This document shows positions 44,871-49,429 of a stretch of DNA of 64,000 bases, piece after piece. A model generated the notes under the pieces. It ran no database searches and had not been told where the DNA came from. It saw only the letters and a list, made by a program, of their open reading frames with translations. Each line of letters begins with the position of its first letter. Position 1 is the stretch's first letter. Origin of the DNA: Phycisphaerales bacterium (GTDB lineage Bacteria > Planctomycetota > Phycisphaerae > Phycisphaerales > SM1A02); NCBI GenBank assembly GCA_029242715.1, contig JAQWTL010000007.1:372001-436000 (forward strand). The letters run 5' to 3'. Both the position numbers and the translations under genes were made by a program.

Positions 44871-46469
44871 ATGATGCGCGGAATCAGCCTTATTCTCTCA
44901 CTGGGTCTCATACTGTTTTCTACTTTATGCCTTGTCCTTGGTGCCATGCACTCATGGCTGTGGTTCTGGGGCCTCGTTCCCAGTGGAGTGCTTGCAGGCA
45001 TTGCCATCTGGGATCACTTCCAATCGCGGCACAGCATCCTGAGAAACTATCCACTGCTCGGGCACCTGCGATACCTTGCAGAAAGCATCCGACCCGAAAT
45101 CGTCCAGTACTTCGTTGAACAGGATGAACAAGGAAGGCCATTCACACGTGTTGAGCGGTCTGCTGTATACGAACGTTCAAAGAATCAAGAGGATGTGAAG
45201 CCATTCGGTACACAACTGGATGTCTATAACGACGAGTATGAATTTCTTGCACACTCGATTGTTCCTCGCCCCTTGTCCAAAGATCCGTTTCGCCTCACTA
45301 TTGGAGGGGAACAATGCTCAAAGCCCTACTCTTCGTCTGTGTTGAACATCTCCGCGATGAGCTTCGGGGCACTTAGCCCCAATGCATTGCTCGCATTGAA
45401 CCAGGCAGCCAAAAGAGGCAACTTCTATCACGACACAGGTGAAGGGGGGATCAGCCCCTATCACATCAAACCGGGTGGTGATCTCGTCTGGGAACTTGGA
45501 ACGGGCTACTTCGGATGCCGAACCGAGGATGGCAGATTTGATCCAGACAAGTATGAGGAGCAGGCAAATCGTGATCAGGTCAAGATGATCGAGATCAAGG
45601 TGTCTCAAGGCGCCAAGGCCGGCCATGGTGGTGTGTTACCCGGATCTAAAGTCGATGAAGAAATCGCGAAGACCCGCGGTATCCCCGTCGGAAAGGATTG
45701 CATTTCGCCTGCCTATCACAGCGCCTTCACCACCCCGGTTGAACTCCTTCAATTTATCGAAGTTCTGAGGAACAGGAGTGGTGGAAAGCCAACTGGCTTC
45801 AAGCTCTGCATCGGTCAACCTTCAGAGTTTCTTGCCATCTGCAAAGCTATTCTGGAGATAGGCATCGTTCCTGATTTCATCGTGGTGGATGGTGGTGAAG
45901 GTGGAACGGGCGCCGGTCCAATCGAGTTCTTGAATCACATGGGATGCCCACTGACAGAAGGCCTGCTCTTTGTTCACAATGCCCTGGTTGGCTGCAATCT
46001 ACGAGACAAGATCAAGATTGGATGCAGTGCAAAGATCACAAACGCCTTTGGTATTGCTAGCCGCATGGCCATTGGGGCTGATTGGTGCAACGCAGCAAGA
46101 GCGTTCATGTTCTCGGTAGGTTGCATTCAGGCCCAGCGATGCCATACCAACACGTGTCCTGTAGGCGTAGCGACCCAGGATGCACGCCTCTTTCGGGGTC
46201 TGGTTGTCGAAGACAAGGCTGATCGCGCCTATCATTACCATCGCAACACGATTGATGCACTTGCCGAAGTTGTCGCAGCAGCAGGACTGGATCACCCCAG
46301 TGAATTCACACCCAGCCAGGTTCTTCGCAGATGCAGTCCGACTGTGGTCAGAAACTACTCCGAGATCTATGAATTCCTTCATCCAGGGGAACTGGTCCAG
46401 GGCGGCGGCAATGTCCTGTGGCAGAAATACTGGGATGGCGCAAACGCGTCGACATTTGCTGTCACTTGA
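44871..46469 (+). CDS. Stand-alone FMN-binding glutamate synthase-domain protein with N-terminal membrane helices
   Basis: 532 aa. Two hydrophobic segments (about 5-26 and 28-45) precede a glutamate synthase central/FMN domain (about 85-500): MSFGALSPNALLALN, GEGGISPYH, KVSQGAKAGHGGVLPG, VDGGEGGTGAGP and CHTNTCPVGVATQD (the iron-sulfur region). No glutaminase domain is present, so it is not a full GltB. Such proteins are thought to bind FMN and a Fe-S cluster; the reaction is not established. GGAG is five bases before ATG 44871. sodN starts 32 bases downstream. Confidence 0.85.
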   Translation: MMRGISLILSLGLILFSTLCLVLGAMHSWLWFWGLVPSGVLAGIAIWDHFQSRHSILRNYPLLGHLRYLAESIRPEIVQYFVEQDEQGRPFTRVERSAVYERSKNQEDVKPFGTQLDVYNDEYEFLAHSIVPRPLSKDPFRLTIGGEQCSKPYSSSVLNISAMSFGALSPNALLALNQAAKRGNFYHDTGEGGISPYHIKPGGDLVWELGTGYFGCRTEDGRFDPDKYEEQANRDQVKMIEIKVSQGAKAGHGGVLPGSKVDEEIAKTRGIPVGKDCISPAYHSAFTTPVELLQFIEVLRNRSGGKPTGFKLCIGQPSEFLAICKAILEIGIVPDFIVVDGGEGGTGAGPIEFLNHMGCPLTEGLLFVHNALVGCNLRDKIKIGCSAKITNAFGIASRMAIGADWCNAARAFMFSVGCIQAQRCHTNTCPVGVATQDARLFRGLVVEDKADRAYHYHRNTIDALAEVVAAAGLDHPSEFTPSQVLRRCSPTVVRNYSEIYEFLHPGELVQGGGNVLWQKYWDGANASTFAVT

Positions 46470-46501
46470 ACTTCCAAATGAAAGAACTGAAAGGCCTGCT
46501 C

Positions 46502-47011
46502 ATGACTCGTCAAATTGCCATCATCGTCACTCTCTCAATGATTGCGGGCGCCTGGATCGCCTTGAGCATGCCGACTGCTAACGCACACTGCCAGATGCCA
46601 TGCGGAATCTACGATGATCCGGCACGGATCGCCGGCCTGAAAGAAGATGCCGCAACCATCCGGAAAGCCGTTACCTCACTGAGAAACATGATGGAGCCGC
46701 ATGACCATGCTCATGGTGAGGATCATGAACATGCTGATGACATGACCCAGTTCAATCAGGGCACTCGTTGGATCATGACGAAGGACCAGCATGCCCAGGC
46801 GATCCAGGATGTCGTTTCCTACTACTTTCTCACTCAGCGTGTAAAAGCTGTGCCCACAGGCAAAGAGGGGCATGAGACATACATCGCTCAACTGGCAGGA
46901 TTTCATCGCATTCTGGTTGCCGCAATGAAATGCAAGCAAACAGCCGATCTCGCCATGGTCGATGAACTGGATGCGGCGATCGCAGCCGTTGCTGGCTGGT
47001 ACACGGACTAG
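46502..47011 (+). CDS. sodN: Nickel superoxide dismutase with export signal
   Basis: 169 aa. A signal peptide (1-28, ending TANA) precedes H29-C30-Q-M-P-C34-G-I-Y, the nickel hook motif HCxxPCGxY. Cleavage after A28 would leave H29 as residue 1, which is required because the His amine and side chain bind nickel. The rest is a helical bundle of the NiSOD type. Residues 66-77 (PHDHAHGEDHEH) form a His/Asp-rich loop that is absent from the well-known Streptomyces protein. An AAAGG stretch precedes ATG 46502; longer starts fall in the previous gene. Its stop overlaps the arsC stop by four bases. Confidence 0.95.
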   Translation: MTRQIAIIVTLSMIAGAWIALSMPTANAHCQMPCGIYDDPARIAGLKEDAATIRKAVTSLRNMMEPHDHAHGEDHEHADDMTQFNQGTRWIMTKDQHAQAIQDVVSYYFLTQRVKAVPTGKEGHETYIAQLAGFHRILVAAMKCKQTADLAMVDELDAAIAAVAGWYTD

Positions 47012-47439
47012 ATATCAGGAGCGCCGGCGACAAGCCATGCGTCGATCTTCGCGGCAATCTTGTCGCGAATGAGTCTGAACGCCTTCCGCTTGTCCTCCAG
47101 TGATCCGCCACTTGTGGCCGGATCATCAAATGGCCAGGAGAGAACCTGTTCTCCAGCAACAAGCGGACAGTTCTCTGCTGCAGAGCTGCATACTGCGATG
47201 GTCAATGAAACAGGGCCTTCTTGAAGAACCTCCTGAACACTTTTTGACCACAGTCCATTCGTGCTGATCTGAATGTCCTCCAGCACTTCTATGGCAAGTG
47301 GGTGCACGGTGGATGGATGTGTTCCGGCACTGCAGGAATCCATTTCTTTACCGATACGATCTCGAAGGATCGCTTCAGCCAATTGACTGCGAGCACTGTT
47401 GGCGGTGCAGAGGAAGAGGATCCGATTCGTACATGTCAT
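47008..47439 (-). CDS. arsC: Thioredoxin-coupled arsenate reductase (ArsC, low-molecular-weight phosphatase fold)
   Basis: 143 aa. C11-T-A-N-S-A-R-S is the phosphate-binding P-loop, and C84 with C91 (VCSSAAENCP) match the relay Cys pair of the thioredoxin-coupled ArsC (C82/C89 in S. aureus). PFDDPA carries the general-acid Asp region. It reduces arsenate to arsenite in the cytoplasm; phosphatase activity is possible. The ATG overlaps the phoU stop (ATGA), so it belongs to the phosphate block. No arsenite exporter gene is next to it. Confidence 0.85.
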   Translation of the reverse strand: MTCTNRILFLCTANSARSQLAEAILRDRIGKEMDSCSAGTHPSTVHPLAIEVLEDIQISTNGLWSKSVQEVLQEGPVSLTIAVCSSAAENCPLVAGEQVLSWPFDDPATSGGSLEDKRKAFRLIRDKIAAKIDAWLVAGAPDI

Positions 47440-48146
47440 CCTGCGGATGCCGTGCCCTTGGTGGAACCACTATTGCTGGCCTTGGGCTTCCGGAAATCGA
47501 GGTCCTCGATCCGGCCAAAGACGGCGGTTGCGACATTCGCCAGGTGCGAGGCTACTCGCTTGTAATGGCGGGAAAGCAATGAATAGGCCACAGCAGCATG
47601 CGTCTCGACCGTACGGCGGTCACGAAGCAATGTCTCCTCGACAGCATCGCACTCCCCGCGAATCCTGTCCGCTGCCTTGATCGCCGACTTCGCTTGCTTC
47701 GTACTGGAGTCACCGAATGCATTGATGACATCATCGAACAAGCAGACAACCTGCTTCCGGATGTCCTCCAGTGGCTGATGATAGCGCCCGATTTCATAGT
47801 CGCCTTCATAGTACTGGCCGACCTCAAAGACATTCTTGCAGTAATCCCCGATGCGTTCGGCATCCTTGGCAATGCTCATGAGCGCCAGGCATCCAGGAAT
47901 GTCAGCAACGGGATTCACACTCAGGTGTGTCAGAATGTTGGCCCGGATCGAACGCAGAAGGGTGTTGATCTCCTGGTCCTTGGTGTAAAGAGGATCTCGA
48001 ACCACATCCCCTTCCTTCTTCCCGCGAAGGACATCATTAGCCTCGCCAAACATCCATTGCGCTGCGGTCAGCATCTCTCGAAACTGAGAGAAGGCCTCAT
48101 CAAGCTTGTTGTCTGTCTTCAAGGCCGCAATAAGTTGGCCGAGCAT
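47436..48146 (-). CDS. phoU: PhoU-domain phosphate regulator
   Basis: 236 aa of two three-helix PhoU bundles. AKDAERIGDYCKNVFEV and SRHYKRVASHLANVATAVFG are the two metal-binding E/DxxxD-type motifs. PhoU damps phosphate uptake and PhoR signalling. AAGGAG lies eight bases before the ATG at 48146. It sits between the Na/Pi cotransporter gene and arsC on the same strand. Confidence 0.88.
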   Translation of the reverse strand: MLGQLIAALKTDNKLDEAFSQFREMLTAAQWMFGEANDVLRGKKEGDVVRDPLYTKDQEINTLLRSIRANILTHLSVNPVADIPGCLALMSIAKDAERIGDYCKNVFEVGQYYEGDYEIGRYHQPLEDIRKQVVCLFDDVINAFGDSSTKQAKSAIKAADRIRGECDAVEETLLRDRRTVETHAAVAYSLLSRHYKRVASHLANVATAVFGRIEDLDFRKPKASNSGSTKGTASAG

Positions 48147-48190
48147 CGTCGTTTCTCCTTGGAAGCCCGTTGGTCATCGGGCACCGTGAG

Positions 48191-49363
48191 TCAATCGCTG
48201 TAGAAGAATACCTCTGTGACAACCAGGCCCACGATCGGAATGATCACAAATATGGTCAACAGAAAGAAGAGTGCGTAGCGAGGTGCGCGAGAAGCAATTC
48301 CGCTGTACCACTTCGCCAATCGAATAGGGATGATCTTGAGTGGGTACCAGATCCCATTGTCAAAGATATTGAAGAGGACATGGGAAACAGCAACAGTCAC
48401 TGCCCCTGCCGTTGGATTAGCTGTCGCCGCAATGACGCCTGTGACAGTAGTCCCGATGTTGCAACCCAGCATGAAGGGGAAGACCCGTCGCAATTTGACG
48501 ACACCGGCCCCAGCGATAGGCACCATGAGACTGGTAGTCACGGAGCTGGACTGCACCGCTACTGTTGAACTGATGCCTGAAATCCAGGCAAAGAAATCGT
48601 TCCTGAAAATCACCTTGCTGAAGAGACCTTCGAGTCGCTGCAGTAATGCGCCCTTGAGATTGCTGACCAGGCCAAGCAGTGAGACAAACAGAATTCCCAG
48701 GCCGATGACTGCAACCGATACGCCCAGTACCGTCACGCTTTCGGTCACATAGCCCACCATGTCATTGATGAAGGTGACAACAGGCTTCGTGATCACCTTG
48801 ATCGGGCTTGTCGGCTTCTCTCCTGGATCCAGGCCAAGGAGTTCCGTGATCCACATTGAAACTCGCATGAGCAATCCATGCCCATTGCTTCCCGGCAATG
48901 ATCGTGATGCCCATTCAAGCGGGAACAGAATCAGGACTGTGAGCAGATTTGGAATCGCGTGCATCAGGGCAGTTGCGTATGCACGACGAAATTGGCGCCG
49001 AATCTTCATGGTTCCAAGTGAAACAATCAGACCGGTAATGCTTGTGCCGATATTGGCACCCATGACCGCGAAGATTGCAGTTCCAACACTGAGTTCGCCT
49101 GCAGCAACCAAGGTAATGATCAGTGATGTTGTGAACGAGGAACTTTGAACAATGGACGTGATGAGAACAGAGGCAAACAAGGCAACAAGTGGATTGTCGC
49201 CCTGAGCCATCGCATTGGCGATCCAGTCAGTCGACTTCCCGATCGACTTCAATCCAGAACCCATGACATTGATGGCACAGAGGAAGAAATAAAGCGAAAC
49301 AACCGCAAACAGGCCATGAACCCAGAAAGGCTTGCTCTTTGGTTGTCCGATTCTTTTTGACAT
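48191..49363 (-). CDS. Na+/phosphate cotransporter family protein
   Basis: 390 aa with about nine hydrophobic segments. The twofold inverted QSSS motifs, TSIVQSSSFTTSLI and TVAVQSSSVTTSLM, with GANIGTSITG and GCNIGTTVTG after each, are diagnostic of the NptA/PNaS family. It imports phosphate with sodium across the inner membrane. The ATG at 49363 is preferred; a TTG one codon upstream is possible. It follows phoR by 66 bases and precedes phoU by 44. No PhoU domain is fused to its C-terminus, unlike many bacterial homologues; here it is a separate gene. Confidence 0.92.
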   Translation of the reverse strand: MSKRIGQPKSKPFWVHGLFAVVSLYFFLCAINVMGSGLKSIGKSTDWIANAMAQGDNPLVALFASVLITSIVQSSSFTTSLIITLVAAGELSVGTAIFAVMGANIGTSITGLIVSLGTMKIRRQFRRAYATALMHAIPNLLTVLILFPLEWASRSLPGSNGHGLLMRVSMWITELLGLDPGEKPTSPIKVITKPVVTFINDMVGYVTESVTVLGVSVAVIGLGILFVSLLGLVSNLKGALLQRLEGLFSKVIFRNDFFAWISGISSTVAVQSSSVTTSLMVPIAGAGVVKLRRVFPFMLGCNIGTTVTGVIAATANPTAGAVTVAVSHVLFNIFDNGIWYPLKIIPIRLAKWYSGIASRAPRYALFFLLTIFVIIPIVGLVVTEVFFYSD

Positions 49364-49429
49364 CAATAACCCGTGCTACTGGAAGTTTGCCCCTGAAGGG
49401 GCTGGCACGGGAATGAGACCAGATGCGTC

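Follow-up and report, generated by a model that had tools for sequence, protein, structure and literature searches.

A predicted exported class of nickel superoxide dismutases without a detected SodX in Planctomycetota and other bacteria

A nickel superoxide dismutase precursor with an export leader

The 64,000-nucleotide stretch of DNA from a marine planctomycete (Phycisphaerales) analyzed here (hereafter, the window) encodes a nickel superoxide dismutase (NiSOD; sodN, 46502..47011, + strand) whose precursor carries a predicted Sec-type signal peptide that ends exactly before the first histidine of the nickel hook. From the sequence evidence, the most likely maturation mechanism (with a probability of about 0.8) would combine export, exposure of His1 by signal peptidase and nickel binding outside the cytoplasm. 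The reading frame is open over 169 codons plus the stop and matches a single Pfam family, Sod_Ni (PF09055), with 95.2 bits (E 5.8e-27; curated cut-off, 25). Against the canonical sodN model of NCBIfam (TIGR02753), the protein scored 35.4 bits, which is below the cut-off of 90. An in-frame ATG at 46478 would add a possible longer N-region (MKELKGLL; 46478..46501, + strand) and the open reading frame tool placed the first start at a GTG (46418); the leader of congener G867 (MTRPIALLIA...) favors the ATG at 46502 as the start. A profile search identified this gene as the sole Sod_Ni match in its own genome (3.2 Mb, 46 contigs, 96.7% complete). The NiSOD with an export leader noted at this locus in the initial annotation is confirmed, at the level of sequence, by the open frame, the PF09055 match and the hydrophobic leader that ends in TANA before the hook.

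The hydrophobic leader (MTRQ...MPTANA, 28 amino acids; 46502..46585, + strand) conforms to the -1/-3 rule of signal peptidase sites and is predicted to be cut between A28 and H29 in a precursor that reads MTRQIAIIVTLSMIAGAWIALSMPTANA/HCQMPCGIYDD (slash, predicted cut). Cleavage after A28 would leave a mature chain that starts with the His of the hook HCQMPCGIY, which spans residues 1-9 of the mature protein (29-37 of the precursor; 46586..46612, + strand). We take His1, Cys2 and Cys6 to be the hook ligands, by analogy with the solved NiSODs. Six positions of the hook (H1, C2, P5, C6, G7 and Y9) are invariant in an alignment (A2) of 75 proteins, which comprises the window protein and 74 of the 80 named loci described below, 77 of those 80 having been taken as references. 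The earlier proposal that cleavage after TANA would itself expose the N-terminal His finds support in the A-N-A/H junction, the hydrophobic leader and the consensus across the class, from which we infer that a signal peptidase cleaves the precursor. The presence of a cysteine shortly after the hydrophobic segment could also suggest a lipoprotein, or the leader could persist as an uncleaved membrane anchor, but we consider both readings very improbable. The lipobox consensus calls for G, A or S before the cysteine and His occupies this position in the window protein and in all of the relatives analyzed (which were recognized by HCxxPC); the lipoprotein reading of sodN was rejected on these grounds. 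As for the uncleaved anchor, His1 could not be the N-terminus without cleavage.

An AlphaFold2 model from 75 aligned sequences shows the rest of the mature protein (46613..47008, + strand) as the four-helix bundle typical of NiSODs (helices 11-36, 50-85, 96-118 and 122-136; mean pLDDT, 91.9). The first nine Foldseek matches of the model were all NiSODs (probability 1.00; E-values 0.04-0.18). Alignment with the NiSOD structure 1q0d gave a Z score of 14.0 and an rmsd of 2.0 over 111 residues, and the first unrelated chain scored 11.9; identity to the solved NiSODs ranged from 12 to 23% in the structural alignments. Because helical bundles generally score high, the hook and the Pfam profile are the main grounds for identifying the protein as a NiSOD. 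A phmmer search of the PDB with the single window protein retrieved nothing at E 0.001, and a 22-sequence profile recovered NiSOD at E 0.011 and weaker, behind an unrelated Affimer at 0.0059. With such weak sequence matches in the PDB, the structural link to NiSOD rests on the model.

Upstream of sodN and on the same strand is a gene with a glutamate synthase domain (44871-46469). Downstream, a convergent low-molecular-weight (LMW) phosphatase or arsenate reductase (ArsC)-like gene (47008-47439, - strand) overlaps the sodN stop by four bases; beyond it are genes for PhoU and a Na/Pi cotransporter, as named by Pfam and NCBIfam. Clusters similar to the four neighbors in this order of genes (44871-49366: glutamate synthase domain, sodN, LMW phosphatase/ArsC-like, PhoU and Na/Pi cotransporter) were present at 18, 7, 11 and 11 loci, with some genomes counted twice. 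No conserved nickel-handling neighbor of sodN was evident among the 40 largest recurring neighbor clusters, for which names from Pfam and NCBIfam cover the window's own neighbors only, and the recurring clusters mostly look like lineage synteny. Clustering also grouped nine loci with an ORF near sodN that is rubrerythrin-like or ferritin-like by sequence impression only (representative, L151:4376-4882, + strand). Near sodN genes of both classes (L075, L080 and L165), there are ORFs that contain a His-rich stretch, begin with a sequence similar to MTGTTLDVLLAAAVSIAFFHTLIGVDHFLP and resemble nickel transporters by look only.

Two classes of NiSOD in Planctomycetota

Sod_Ni matches were present in 55 of 392 genomes sampled from the phylum and in 67 of 397 genomes sampled from the taxonomic class. 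At the family level, 45 of 181 genomes had a match, one of them weak (E 8.5e-4); loci were read in 30 of these genomes, and three of the other 15 were represented by earlier loci. The family loci cover all five other genomes of the genus. Overall, the analysis included approximately 145 loci, mostly from uncultured assemblies. We compared 111 Sod_Ni loci (14 cytosolic-type and 97 exported-type) and the window protein, the latter bringing the exported type to 98. Five partial matches (G035, a second place in G072, G596, G717 and G703) were left out before the counts. Two of them (G035 and G596) belong to the exported type (VFS/HCEIPCG and ADA/HCQVPCG, respectively); no hook was present in the stretch read for the other three, one of which is partly N.

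The Sod_Ni scores of these proteins were bimodal, with 14 at 146-166 bits and 98, including the window protein, at 83-130 bits. The hook reads HCD[GI]PCG and follows a hydrophilic propeptide in all 14 cytosolic-type proteins, and reads HC[QE]xPCG in all 98 exported-type proteins. Hence, residue 3 is Asp in 14/14 of the former versus Gln or Glu in 98/98 of the latter (Gln3 in the window protein); seven of the 98 have Phe rather than Tyr at residue 9. Every exported-type protein has an 11-residue segment with a mean hydropathy of at least 1.9 in the 40 residues before His1 (lowest maximum, 1.90). One cytosolic-type protein of the 14 passed this threshold, owing to residues upstream of its likely Met. 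Further, the residue preceding His1 satisfies the -1/-3 rule in 89 of the 98 exported-type proteins, the nine exceptions having F, R, W, L, I, P or T at -1. Since A-x-A or V-x-A also precedes His1 in 14/14 cytosolic-type proteins, the distinction between the two peptidases depends on the hydrophobic leader and not on this consensus alone. The recurrence of leader and cut site across 98 proteins indicates that the export signal is no peculiarity of the window gene. One of the 98 (L123, from genome G006) has the hook and Sod_Ni domain at the start of a 452-amino-acid mature chain with a long C-terminal extension; it was left out of the His counts and the tree presented below.

The two classes also separated in a tree of 192 mature sequences and 136 columns, for which rows identical over the first 136 residues had been merged (216 to 192). 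The 14 cytosolic rows, all from Planctomycetota, are on one side of a single branch (support 95/94, from a bootstrap that was not fully settled), so that one change separates the classes. The window protein is on the exported side.

SodX accompanies the cytosolic-type genes

A profile built from seven SodX sequences matched 13 of the 14 cytosolic-type loci; the remaining one (G102) is cut by a contig edge. Seven of the 13 loci are profile seeds and match by construction, so the actual test is provided by the other six and by the zeros: no match in the 97 exported-type loci, in the 80 named loci or in the window. The NCBIfam model TIGR02754 alone recovered the same 13 cytosolic-type loci, nine of them over the cut-off. 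In the phylum sample, nine of the 392 genomes had a TIGR02754 match over the cut-off, all nine among the 14 with the cytosolic type and none among the 41 exported-only genomes. Weaker matches (E up to 1e-6) were present in 47 further genomes of this sample. Four of the weaker matches (G044, G072, G100 and G249) adjoin a cytosolic-type SodN gene; six in exported-only genomes (G006, G030, G035, G051, G160 and G367) are on another contig than SodN and resemble signal peptidase I. Three genomes (G100, G169 and G191) carry both NiSOD types, and SodX adjoins the cytosolic copy. We also checked, genome-wide, a set of 24 genomes and one plasmid record that hold exported-type genes and were reached through their loci. 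Two of them (G910 and G914) carry an additional Sod_Ni gene whose high score (155-160 bits) marks it as the cytosolic kind, and it is only beside these second copies that SodX-like genes were next to SodN (50 and 75 bits, one of them exceeding the cut-off). The remaining matches in this set (20.7-29.6 bits) are on contigs other than that of SodN.

The lack of a SodX gene near sodN, noted when the window was first annotated, was borne out by the absence of any SodX-profile match within its 64 kb. Extending the search to the whole genome (96.7% complete) did not reveal a SodX either, the best TIGR02754 match being 12.4 bits (E 0.5; cut-off, 63.25), and the absence proved to be a property of the whole exported class. 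Matches to PF10502 (signal peptidase) in the same genome are confined to one LepB-like frame of 536 amino acids. This signal peptidase I gene (G000:C45:32903-34279) matches PF10502 in three separated pieces, a split that suggests large insertions. In the exported class, signal peptidase I probably replaces SodX.

A proposed route of export and maturation

We propose that the Sec machinery would take the unfolded precursor across the inner membrane, where signal peptidase I (LepB) would cut after the A-x-A type site and free His1 of the HCxxPCGxY hook as the N-terminus. In this way, the general export pathway would take over the step that SodX catalyzes in the cytosolic class. Once mature, the protein would fold as a four-helix bundle and bind nickel outside the cytoplasm via His1, Cys2 and Cys6. 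The proposal builds on the computed leader, cut-site consensus, hook, fold, class split, lack of a detected SodX and patchy His-rich elements, and would assign to the window protein its compartment, metal and activity and to its His-rich loop a role. Against this mechanism, a disulfide could link Cys2 to Cys6 in an oxidizing periplasm, and the Tyr at position 9 of the hook is replaced by Phe in seven of the 98 exported-type proteins.

The final cut could, alternatively, be made by an unlinked protease rather than by signal peptidase I, with the leader serving only for export and a propeptide being trimmed later. The nine exceptions to the -1/-3 rule would fit such a route, as would the approximately 20 further residues that separate the hydrophobic segment from His1 in the genomes read from genera g269, g10, g271 and g512. 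We nonetheless regard it as unlikely for the window protein, because a signal-peptidase consensus that ends exactly at His1 in this protein and in 88 of the 97 others would be hard to explain if another protease set the end. The exceptions and the long spacers do indicate that at least some exported members need a second trimming step. The loci with long spacers (L202-L205, L207, L118 and L178), all from the same family, have A, I or G at -1 and look like a signal peptide plus a propeptide that would require a second cut. Another group of loci (L109, L112, L117, L119, L120, L113, L238, L244 and L267) has F, R, L, W, D or V before His1, which is unfit for signal peptidase I, yet retains the hydrophobic leader; most of the unnamed ones are in one family (f37).

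Under the preferred route of export and cleavage by signal peptidase I, the NiSOD would remove superoxide outside the cytoplasm and the cytosolic Fe/Mn SOD would serve inside. The genome that contains the window encodes an Fe/Mn SOD without a leader and returned no match for a CuZn SOD; thus, the two SODs probably serve two compartments. CuZn SOD was present in 3 of 44 genomes with an exported NiSOD versus 70 of 337 without a NiSOD (Fisher p 0.025) and in 5 of 14 with the cytosolic type. These counts, which are confounded by lineage, fit the replacement of a periplasmic CuZn SOD by the exported NiSOD.

His-rich loops and tails

The window protein also contains a His-rich insertion, PHDHAHGEDHEH, of the composition type DHxHGxxHEH (46697..46732, + strand; residues 66-77 of the precursor and 38-49 of the mature protein). 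Rather than being inside the helical domain, as first annotated, the insertion fills a low-confidence, predicted disordered loop between helix 1 (11-36) and helix 2 (50-85) of the model (pLDDT 60 in block 41-50). Of the 20 more distant proteins in another alignment (A1), most have an alpha1-alpha2 loop that is approximately 12 residues shorter. With five His in 14 residues, the segment is unusual but not extreme. Segments with at least five His in 14 residues were present in 13 of 122 exported NiSODs versus 46 of 1249 recurring neighbor ORFs (Fisher p 0.0014, which is optimistic because relatives are counted as independent), and those with at least six in 11/122 versus 10/1249, a control that may include antisense frames.

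The loop was expected to recur in close relatives, which was only partly the case. Congener G867 has a stronger His loop (PHHHDHGHDHSHDHEH) and G869 a weak one (DHSH, in PQDHSHGE only), and the His cluster is absent from the loops of G866, G868 and G870; a strong loop is therefore present in one of five congeners, a weak one in another and none in three, and the loop is not conserved at this level. In the tree, the window protein groups with G867 (99/83) and both group with G869 (100/64), so that a single recent gain of the loop is the simplest reading. The loop DNA of G867 contains a 6.5-copy CATGAT array (72% matches), of which the window copy is less regular. The array points to repeat slippage as the probable origin of the loop.

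His-rich segments recur elsewhere in the exported class. C-terminal tails with at least two His in the last 15 residues are present in 60 of 122 exported NiSODs, 0 of 14 cytosolic NiSODs and 116 of 1249 recurring neighbor ORFs. In the neighboring genus g5, both of the proteins read end in His tails (for example, HDHEHDHCHDHDHEH) but lack a His loop, the reverse of the window protein, in which the loop is present and the tail absent. Segments with at least five His in 14 residues occupy 14 of the 192 rows of the tree and required 10 Fitch changes (shuffled mean, 13.7), indicating that they arose several times. A role in nickel capture is plausible for such segments.

Two readings of the loop merit consideration. 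It could be the neutral product of an expansion of CATGAY hexamers, with no role in metal binding, in a surface loop that tolerates such repeats, which we deem a serious possibility though clearly short of even odds. The confinement of the loop to the sub-clade of the window protein, G867 and G869, its absence from three congeners, an array in G867 that slippage could produce and a modeled loop whose lack of structure would tolerate expansion are all consistent with neutrality. So is the dispensability of the His-rich tail of UreE for urease maturation, as described in the accessible part of PMC7055735. This reading accounts less well for the overrepresentation of segments with six or more His in exported NiSODs, for their repeated origin and for the presence of His-rich segments at two different places in the protein, with tails in the exported but not the cytosolic class. 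Alternatively, the loop could act as a built-in metallochaperone that buffers or captures nickel (or a different divalent metal) and supplies it to the hook, in a manner comparable to the His-rich ends of HypB, SlyD and UreE; we hold this view tentatively, at slightly under even odds. Its composition and the recurrence of His-rich tails in the class argue for such a role, and a cytosolic nickel chaperone would be of no help outside the cytoplasm. Further, the His-rich regions of HypB, SlyD and UreE bind nickel (PMC7055735, accessible part). The lack of conservation among congeners argues against it, as does the position of the alpha1-alpha2 loop, which the up-down topology of the bundle would place at the end opposite the hook of the same subunit; a neighboring subunit of a hexamer could, however, be served. 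That the loop helps the enzyme at all we likewise put at just below an even chance. If it does, the loop, like the His-rich C-terminal tails of relatives, would be an optional, recently gained, low-affinity arm for collecting nickel.

The periplasmic CuZn SOD of Haemophilus is reported to have a His-rich N-terminal extension. It resembles the window protein as an exported SOD with its own His-rich, metal-collecting segment, but it is a copper/zinc enzyme with another fold and the segment is located elsewhere. HypB, SlyD and UreE share with the window protein a flexible His-rich segment (PMC7055735, accessible part). However, these are separate accessory proteins, whereas the putative element of the window protein is part of the enzyme itself.

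Distribution, known systems and significance

A query for the exported type matched at least 582 stretches of genome_contigs, of which at least 567 were confirmed. The named loci are the best 80 of these confirmed stretches; because they were picked by motif patterns, they show spread rather than frequency and are a biased test of the class split. Among the best 80 are loci from Planctomycetota, Pseudomonadota, Thermodesulfobacteriota, Verrucomicrobiota, Kiritimatiellota, Lentisphaerota (Victivallis vadensis DSM 14823), Bacteroidota, Neomarinimicrobiota, Acidobacteriota, Calditrichota and others, and the lineages in which exported-type genes recur include Gammaproteobacteria, Desulfobacterota, Verrucomicrobiota, Bacteroidota, Fusobacteriota and others. 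A hydrophobic leader (at least 1.6) is present in every one of the 80, and 75 satisfy the -1/-3 rule. Twenty-four are identical to loci already counted; in the other 56, the proportions are 56/56 and 51/56, respectively. The Fusobacteriota member, Ilyobacter polytropus, carries the gene on a 962-kb plasmid, where it is annotated as superoxide dismutase [Ni] (WP_013389192.1). This megaplasmid was the only match of a tblastn search of 72,556 plasmid records, and none was retrieved from 50,697 phage records. In IMG/VR, 17 stretches fit the pattern and none encoded a relative. Hence, there is no sign of transfer by plasmid or phage in these collections.

The homologues of I. polytropus DSM 2926, Neiella marina J221 and V. 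vadensis DSM 14823 are also of the exported type and have no SodX beside them. Their leaders end in ...FA/HCEVPCGIY, ...YS/HCQIPCGIY and ...FA/HCEIPCGIY, respectively. They belong to other phyla and, unlike the window protein, those of Neiella and Victivallis have no segment with five or more His in 14 residues; none is visible in the Ilyobacter protein. NiSOD diversity was reportedly treated by Dupont et al. in 2008. The NiSODs of Streptomyces and marine cyanobacteria (SodN with SodX; 1q0d and 1t6u) share with the window protein the HCxxPCGxY hook, the four-helix bundle, the Sod_Ni family and the need for a new N-terminal His. They differ in having a short hydrophilic propeptide instead of an export leader, a SodX, which was not found for the window protein, and D at residue 3, where the exported type has Q or E. 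Ten cyanobacteria, on the other hand, have been reported to lack sodX. In the accessible parts of the respective papers, bacterial NiSOD is treated as matured by a cognate peptidase (PMC3919588) and the cyanobacterial enzyme as cytoplasmic (PMC8346466). The ubiquitin-fused NiSOD of algae (PMC6332867, accessible part) likewise has an N-terminal partner whose removal, presumably by ubiquitin processing, could expose the hook; the partner is eukaryotic ubiquitin rather than a bacterial signal peptide. Although the hook, the family and the fold were already known, no description of a NiSOD with a signal peptide was found among the matches listed in the open literature, including the accessible parts of PMC6332867, PMC8346466, PMC10783094, PMC11636452, PMC3872050, PMC7055735, PMC4186839, PMC11729112, PMC7190382 and PMC3919588. 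This is weak evidence of absence, as subscription papers are outside this scope.

More broadly, and as a tentative proposal that we rate somewhat below an even chance, the exported proteins may constitute a second, phylum-spanning branch of NiSODs in which Sec export is the maturation step, the role of SodX falls to signal peptidase I and nickel insertion takes place outside the cytoplasm. His-rich arms that are movable, being C-terminal in many lineages and, in this genus, part of the alpha1-alpha2 loop, would have arisen repeatedly as a means of gathering nickel in a compartment where cytosolic chaperones are of no help. Should the exported class prove active, many bacteria would be expected to have sodN but no sodX and to keep a nickel SOD outside the cytoplasm. 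The class would also offer a natural setting in which NiSODs do without SodX and, with it, the means to test directly the minimum required for NiSOD maturation and nickel loading.
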